A stretch of DNA of 64,000 nt from Reinekea thalattae. GTDB lineage: Bacteria; Pseudomonadota; Gammaproteobacteria; Pseudomonadales; Natronospirillaceae. Positions within the stretch are counted from its first letter, which is position 1; every line of letters begins with the position of its first letter. The stretch covers positions 62,001 to 126,000 of the forward strand of contig NZ_VKAD01000003.1 of assembly GCF_008041945.1 (NCBI RefSeq), in the 5' to 3' direction. The position numbers were made by a program, and so were the translations under genes. The notes below the pieces were generated by a model. That model saw only the letters and a list, made by a program, of their open reading frames with translations, was not told the origin of the DNA and searched no databases. Of this stretch, positions 58,714 to 60,615 are shown one piece after another.

Positions 58714-60615
58714 ATGGAAAATACTGACACAATGGAAACTTCGCATAGTCAGGCGATGTCTAGAGGTCAATTGACTTTGTCATCGCCGAAACCGACAGAT
58801 GGTGTGTGGGTTAACCGACTGATTGCTCGGTGCCAGCCACTGGATACCAATTCAACCTATTGCAACCTGTTGCAATGTGATCACTTTGCCAATACCTCGA
58901 TCATCGCTAAGCGAGATCAACAGGTGGTCGGCTTTATCAGCGCCTATGTTGTGCCTGATCGCCCCGAAACACTCTTTGTTTGGCAAGTTGCCGTCGATCA
59001 GAGTGAGCGAGGCACAGGCCTTGCCACTCGGCTATTAGGTTCTTTGTTAGAGCGTGAATCGCTGGCTGACATCGCCTATATCGAAACCACCATTACCAAA
59101 AATAATGCAGCCTCTTGGGCACTGTTTAAGCGTTATGCAACACGCTTAGAGAGTCCGCTTAATGCCACCGAGCACTACCAATCTAATGAGCACTTTAACG
59201 GCGAACACGACAGCGAATGGCTGGTGTGTATTGGCCCTATTGCTCGCTCAAATTATCAGAATCAGTCAACGTCATTCGTAGGAGAGACCATGAAAATCTT
59301 TGAAGAGTTTGAATCAGAAGTTCGTTCTTATTCACGATCATTCCCCAATATGTTTGACCAAGCGCAAGGCGAAATTTTGCGTGACAACGAAGGCCGCGAA
59401 TATCTCGATTTCTTAGCCGGTGCCGGCACACTTAATTACGGCCACAACAATCCAGCCTTAAAAGAAGCCTTGCTTGAGTACATTGCACGCGATGGCATCA
59501 GTCATGGTTTGGATATGCACACCAAAGCCAAGGCGGAATTTCTAGAAGCCTTTAACGACATTATTTTGCAGCCGCGAAATTTAAACTATGTCATGCAGTT
59601 TACTGGCCCGACTGGTACCAATGCTGTTGAAGCGGCGCTTAAGGTGGCGCGCAATGTTACCGGCCGTGAAAATATTATTTCGTTCACCAATGGTTTTCAT
59701 GGCGTCAGCATGGGTGCGTTAGCCGCAACTGGTAATTCGCATCACCGTGGTGCCGCAGGCGTTAGTCTTTCGGGTGTTAGCCGTATGCCGTTCGATGGTT
59801 ACTTAGGTGACGATGTTGATACCAATGCTTACCTCGACAAGGTCTTGTCGGATCCGAGCAGCGGCATCGATACGCCAGCGGCGGTGATGGTTGAAACGGT
59901 TCAGGGCGAGGGCGGTGTTAATGCTGCCAGCTTTGAATGGCTGCAAGGTTTGCAGGAAGTTTGCCGTAAGCACGATGTGTTGTTGATTGTTGATGATATT
60001 CAAGCCGGTTGTGGTCGCACCGGTAGCTTCTTTAGTTTTGAAGGTGCCGGAATCGAACCTGACATTGTCACGCTGTCGAAATCGCTGAGTGGTTATGGCT
60101 TGCCGTTTGCGGTTGTGTTGATGAAACCAGAACTGGACCAATGGAAGCCGGGTGAGCACAACGGTACTTTTCGTGGCAACAACCTAGCCTTTGTCACTGC
60201 CAAGGCGACGCTCGAACATTATTGGCGCGATGCTGAGTTTTCACGCAGTGTCATTAAAAAAGGTCAGTACGTTGAAAAACGACTCAACGCGATGGCCGAA
60301 AAATACAGCCAAGGCAGCTTTAGTGTTTGTGGTCGAGGCATGTTCTTAGGCATTAACTGTATCGATGGCGACATTGCTTCGAGCATTACTAAGCATGCTT
60401 TTAAAAATGGTTTGGTGATCGAAACCAGTGGTGCAGAAGATCAGGTGGTGAAGATTTTCTGCCCGTTAACGATCAGCGAAGGCAACTTAAAGCGTGGCTT
60501 GGATATTTTAGAAAAGGCCGTTGCTCAGGTTTGCCAAAGTCTCAATTCGTTGCCTGATGATGGCGACTATTTCGATCATGTTCAGGTCGACGACGATGTT
60601 AAGTGGGTCGGCTAG
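58714..60615 (+). CDS. ectA/ectB: EctA-EctB fusion: diaminobutyrate acetyltransferase and aminotransferase
   Basis: Single frame of 633 aa joining two ectoine enzymes. Residues about 15-176 are EctA, a GNAT acetyltransferase ([16 protein letters not shown] is the acetyl-CoA loop; [20 protein letters not shown] precedes it) that makes N-gamma-acetyl-diaminobutyrate. Residues 193-633 are EctB, a class III PLP aminotransferase producing diaminobutyrate from aspartate semialdehyde, with [33 protein letters not shown] and the PLP lysine K456 in [11 protein letters not shown]. No stop separates them. Residues about 177-192 are read-through from the usual spacer, with the old ectB ribosome binding site at 59280. 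The start codon is uncertain (58714, 58732 or 58759), as none has a good Shine-Dalgarno. Confidence 0.88.
59280..59292 (+). promoter_or_regulatory. Internal ribosome binding site and ATG for a separate EctB
   Basis: AGGAG (59280-59284), 5 nt before an ATG (59290-59292) that begins [20 protein letters not shown], the normal EctB start. Free EctB could be made from this site in addition to the fusion; it encodes the VGE of the linker in the fused frame. Confidence 0.75.

Follow-up and report, generated by a model that had tools for sequence, protein, structure and literature searches.

Does the ectoine locus of this window (the whole stretch of DNA analysed, 64,000 nucleotides) encode the diaminobutyrate acetyltransferase EctA and the diaminobutyrate-2-oxoglutarate transaminase EctB as a single bifunctional protein, and, if it does, how did the two genes come to be joined and is free EctB still made? 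The canonical ectABC operon, as described in the accessible portions of PMC5924519 and PMC6915088, resembles this locus in its enzymes, in the order ectA-ectB-ectC, in its MarR regulator and in its ask gene; it differs in having separate EctA and EctB, which in the window share one frame. In those portions of the two papers the words 'fusion' and 'fused' refer to constructs with reporters, to affinity tags or to proteins other than these.

The fused frame and its surroundings

The earlier note had proposed one frame of 633 codons holding both enzymes, and the assembled sequence bears this out: the fused frame runs from ATG to TAG at 58714..60615 on the + strand, encodes 633 residues without an internal stop, and contains both domains in nearly complete form and above curated cut-offs. 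The EctA domain, a GNAT acetyltransferase (58780..59241, +; PDB relatives 3d3s and 6sk1), matches the equivalog profile TIGR02406 with 189.7 bits against a curated cut-off of 120.6 (residues 23-176, profile positions 2-156 of 157), and the EctB part (59290..60615, +, beginning at an internal ATG at 59290; PDB 9s1q/6rl5) matches the equivalog profile TIGR02407 with 670.8 bits against a curated cut-off of 552.2 (residues 194-604, profile positions 1-411 of 412). The extents of these two matches agree with the proposed end of EctA near residue 176 and the proposed start of EctB at ATG 59290. The PLP-binding lysine of the EctB part is K456, which aligns to the 9s1q lysine at the position where 9s1p has alanine; this lysine is invariant across the 12 fused proteins described below. 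The predicted monomer (70-sequence alignment, mean pLDDT 88.2, pTM 0.69) has two confident domains, with pLDDT mostly above 90 in the EctA domain and below 50 at residues 179-191 of the linker region; the model covers the monomer only.

The window genome (G000; 2.94 Mb in 5 contigs, 98.47% complete) contains a single EctA match. The next-best EctB-like protein shows only 34% identity (E 3e-41), so that the fused frame looks like the sole source of both enzymes. Around it we find the layout of an ectABC operon. Ectoine synthase, ectC, lies directly downstream (60692..61096, +; NF009806 at 190.7 bits, PF06339), together with the aspartate kinase of the ectoine operon, ask (61238..62665, +; NF006614 at 734.5 bits, cut-off 536), and a ProV-like transporter ATPase is also encoded downstream of the fused gene. 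Upstream and divergent is a MarR-family regulator, EctR-like by position (57890..58435, - strand; PF01047), a homologue of which occupies the same divergent place at six same-genus loci. A different joining was seen in another genome of the same order (G045), where an EctR-like MarR regulator is fused in frame to EctA (L022:355-1359; 335 residues, PF01047 covering 31-89 and Acetyltransf_1 covering 196-283).

The first ATG of the fused gene, at 58714, is without a Shine-Dalgarno sequence (pairing energy +0.6), and the ATG of same-genus relatives falls near residue 15 of the window protein; translation may therefore really begin at 58732 or 58756. All three in-frame ATGs within 58714-58770 are without a good Shine-Dalgarno (+0.6, -3.3 and +0.4), unlike the strong internal ectB site.

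The junction and its internal ribosome site

A linker of 16 residues (177-192; 59242..59289, +) separates the two domains, as delimited from the sequence, from the pLDDT below 50 and from comparison with unfused spacers. Its 3' end reads GTA GGA GAG ACC, followed by ATG 59290, and includes TAGGAG (59279..59284, +), which lies 5 nt ahead of that ATG and is the internal ectB Shine-Dalgarno. The claim that the old ectB initiation signal persists inside the fusion is upheld by this position and by a pairing energy of -7.3 (pairing energies were calculated against the anti-Shine-Dalgarno core). An energy as good or better occurs at 38 of the 2026 internal Met codons of ectA and ectB; the means are -2.7 for these internal codons (n = 2026) and -5.5 for unfused ectB (n = 179), versus -7.3 in the window. 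RNA folding around the internal start (-6.4) slightly exceeds that of unfused loci (mean -3.9, sd 2.4, n = 146), and a scan for sigma-70-like promoters, with 2 sites versus a shuffle mean of 5.9, was uninformative. Since the fused frame retains both the ectB ATG and a strong ribosome site ahead of it, free EctB is probably also made in the window organism.

Six relatives from the same genus are unfused, with ectA-ectB gaps of -4, 13, 19, 21, 21 and 29 nt. When the linker was compared at full length with unfused spacers, its score was equalled by 4 of 2000 shuffles for L008 (same genus), by 26 and 25 of 2000 for L002 and L003, and by 182, 268 and 531 of 2000 for L007, L011 and L010. With the 14 nt of the Shine-Dalgarno end removed, 67 of 2000 shuffles scored as high against L008, and the comparisons with L002, L003, L007, L011 and L010 were at chance level (345 to 1161 of 2000), indicating that the ribosome-site end is common to the unfused relatives and that the remainder of the resemblance is only suggestive. 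The linker is likely the former ectA-ectB spacer brought into frame. The earlier note had envisaged loss of the ectA stop codon, with the spacer becoming a linker; a spacer origin is likely (4 of 2000 shuffles for L008), but a bare stop loss is not supported, as the alignment to the L008 spacer requires gaps. In two unfused loci, L007 in the window genus and L192 (G629, whose genus code is shared with the fused L191), the ectA and ectB genes share a 4-nt overlap (ATGA); the layout of the junction thus varies within genera.

Fusions in other lineages

We gathered 247 loci from genome searches and from a scan of genome contigs (the best 80 of 110); 12 without EctA and EctB on one strand were dropped, and 42 of the remaining 235 were repeat junctions, leaving 193 distinct ones. 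Twelve of these 193 adjacent junctions are stop-free across the two genes, and the unfused junctions are spread about evenly over the three frames (63/56/62). All 11 fused proteins besides that of the window score above both the EctA and the EctB cut-offs. They come from Motilimonas cestriensis, Motilimonas sp. E26 and M. eburnea (loci L085, L086 and L105), from Microbulbifer okhotskensis and a further genome of its clade (G780), and from six genomes of another family of the same order, f28 (L172, L180, L183, L187, L190 and L191). The fusion is present in 1 of 7 genomes of the window genus, in 3 of 3 EctA-bearing genomes of the Motilimonas family (4 sampled), in 2 of 45 of the Microbulbifer-like genus (48 sampled) and in 6 of 12 of f28 (15 sampled). 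Among EctA-bearing genomes of the wider samples, which overlap with one another and with those of genus and family, it occurs in at least 7 of 202 in the order (390 sampled; among the matches listed, to about E 4e-45), in 1 of 43 in the class (369 sampled) and in 1 of 51 in the phylum (398 sampled), the last two being the window itself. None was found on viral contigs. An 814-residue EctA-EctB frame in G045 was rejected (a TGA lies between the two), and in the long EctA frames L068 (313 residues) and L069 (317 residues) a second domain was not recognisable by eye in the upstream open stretch.

In a quick tree built from EctA and EctB together (193 rows, linker excluded), the fused or unfused label changes 6 times, at least 4 of them across well-supported branches. 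A single origin for all fusions (12 distinct rows as one clade) was rejected, with p-AU 5.5e-5, and separate origins within f28 are unsupported, the six rows as one clade giving a better tree (p-AU 0.68). Motilimonas and Microbulbifer are separate in the quick tree (lnL 45 better), but placing them in one clade is not rejected (p-AU 0.21); both have linkers of 11 codons. Three or four origins of the fusion would fit these results. Within the Microbulbifer clade, the unfused L093 and L099 read CAA TAA GAG TAA AGA ATG, and the fused pair reads CAT/CAC AAA GAG AAG ACA/AGA ATG, of the same length and with both stops gone; the spacers of L195 and L222, which are nearer in the tree to the fused pair, differ from these and stand in a different frame, so the comparison falls short of a full reconstruction.

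The window's version of the linker is found in one genome only, and constraint on the linker was evaluated in the other lineages, using seven pairs of equal length within lineages (L183, L190 and L191 left out). The fraction of linker changes at third codon positions is 6/7 (L085/L086), 9/14 and 5/10 for the three Motilimonas pairs and 11/21, 14/22 (L172/L187) and 13/22 for the three f28 pairs; the Microbulbifer pair L091/L200 has no third-position excess (2/5, P 0.54). Pooling the strongest pairs gives 22 of 34 changes at third positions (P 1.8e-4 versus one third), an optimistic value because the strongest pair by P was taken for Motilimonas and f28, and pooling the weakest pair of each lineage gives 18 of 36 (P 0.028). 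The linkers of Motilimonas and f28 look constrained as protein, as expected if they are translated.

The internal sites of the Motilimonas fusions (-2.1, -3.0 and, in M. eburnea, where the site is gone, +0.6) and of the Microbulbifer fusions (-2.9 and -2.9) are at background, and those of f28 range from -4.7 to -6.6. Taken as a group, fused loci have a stronger internal site than internal Met codons (P 0.004); ribosome-site strength does not differ between fused and unfused loci as groups (P 0.30). Sites at background suggest that Motilimonas and Microbulbifer probably rely on the fused chain itself. Further EctB-like proteins (E<=1e-40) are encoded in these genomes: one each in M. eburnea and Motilimonas sp. 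E26 (39% identical), others in M. cestriensis (50% and 39%), in G780 (67%) and in the six fused f28 genomes (48-54%). With its internal site gone and its other EctB-like protein only 39% identical, M. eburnea at least, if it is an ectoine producer, would have to use the fused chain as its EctB. The second EctB-like protein of G780 (G780:C1:4009262-4010515; 67% to the window EctB) is encoded some 13 kb away from the fusion.

Explanations and significance

We consider it probable that both enzymes are produced as one bifunctional EctA-EctB protein in which the former spacer serves as a flexible linker, with free EctB probably produced as well. In this account a short ectA-ectB spacer in the window lineage would have lost its stop and come into frame, now acting as the flexible linker; the EctB part would make L-2,4-diaminobutyrate, the attached EctA domain would acetylate that product, and EctC would then close the ring. 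An expressed and active fused chain is our inference.

An assembly or base-calling error, in which one surplus base hides a real ectA stop, would remove the fusion altogether. A TAG lies in the +1 frame at 59279-59281, overlapping the Shine-Dalgarno, and a surplus base within 59242-59278 would expose it as the end of ectA; such an error would also suit a species represented by one genome whose six same-genus relatives are unfused. We nevertheless hold it to be very improbable, considering that the longest single-base run in 59236-59293 is 3, that 92% of the window is taken up by open frames of 100 codons or more (a measure of coverage only), that the assembly has few contigs and high completeness (values above), and that the same EctA-EctB join is present at 11 other distinct loci. 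The fusion might instead be real and of no consequence, having arisen by drift, with working EctB supplied from the internal start and EctA carrying a harmless tail. The strong internal site in the window, the energies in f28 and the variable junction within the genus (the gaps of -4 to 29 nt given above) are all compatible with drift, but the background internal sites of the Motilimonas and Microbulbifer fusions (-3.0 to +0.6) and the protein-like constraint on the Motilimonas and f28 linkers argue against it, and we regard it as unlikely.

If the fusion matters, one possible reason is channelling of diaminobutyrate from EctB to EctA, as the earlier note had suggested: the two enzymes catalyse consecutive steps (according to the available part of PMC6915088), and the domains are tethered in the predicted structure. 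The disordered linker of the model speaks for tethering, however, and not for a tunnel, and the Paenibacillus lautus EctB is a homotetramer (PMC6915088, same part); we think channelling quite improbable. The benefit of a bifunctional protein is more likely to be fixed co-production or co-assembly, in which fused chains would hang EctA domains on an EctB oligomer core. Beyond this, it is conceivable, though we put it forward tentatively, that the fusion is a repeatedly evolved dual-product gene, giving the fused chain plus free EctB from a selected internal start in the window and f28, and an obligate fusion in Motilimonas. Were that so, mixed EctB oligomers would carry a set number of EctA arms, the internal start would have decayed in Motilimonas, and the lineages would mark different points along a single route towards a bifunctional enzyme.

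Natural joining of ectoine pathway enzymes is known from eukaryotes, in EctA-EctC and EctA-EctC-EctD fusions (Harding et al., via the available part of PMC5796728); those join EctA to a later step, EctC, whereas the window joins it to an earlier one, EctB. Searches by exact phrase and by word combinations, with most subscription papers outside their scope, found no printed natural EctA-EctB fusion among the matches listed; nor were aminotransferase-decarboxylase fusions in polyamine synthesis, a possible parallel, confirmed among the matches listed. Fusion of consecutive enzymes is of a known kind, and the EctA-EctB pairing is one for which we found no printed precedent.

In the portions of PMC13182010 (2026) available, five Motilimonas genomes are scored with ectB and ectC, ectA is not scored, and M. 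pumila is without ectB and ectC; the words 'fused' and 'fusion' are absent from its main text. Two of the three ect genes are thus scored there, whereas the three Motilimonas genomes here have EctA inside the ectB frame, which would explain the ectA gap if the same strains are meant (by name, the overlap with that partially available source is E26 only). A fourth genome of the Motilimonas family (G1146) has no EctA match, which would fit M. pumila as scored in those portions. Because annotation gives one name per frame, ectA can be lost and a complete pathway then looks broken, and to judge from the same portions this seems to have happened to ectA in Motilimonas.

A natural EctA-EctB fusion is a ready-made candidate bifunctional enzyme, and the fused lineages provide a set in which the old internal start is kept in some and lacking in others. 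Ectoine has industrial value as well as a major role in osmoprotection, and in several bacteria the joining of EctA to EctB can make one gene of its synthesis appear to be missing.
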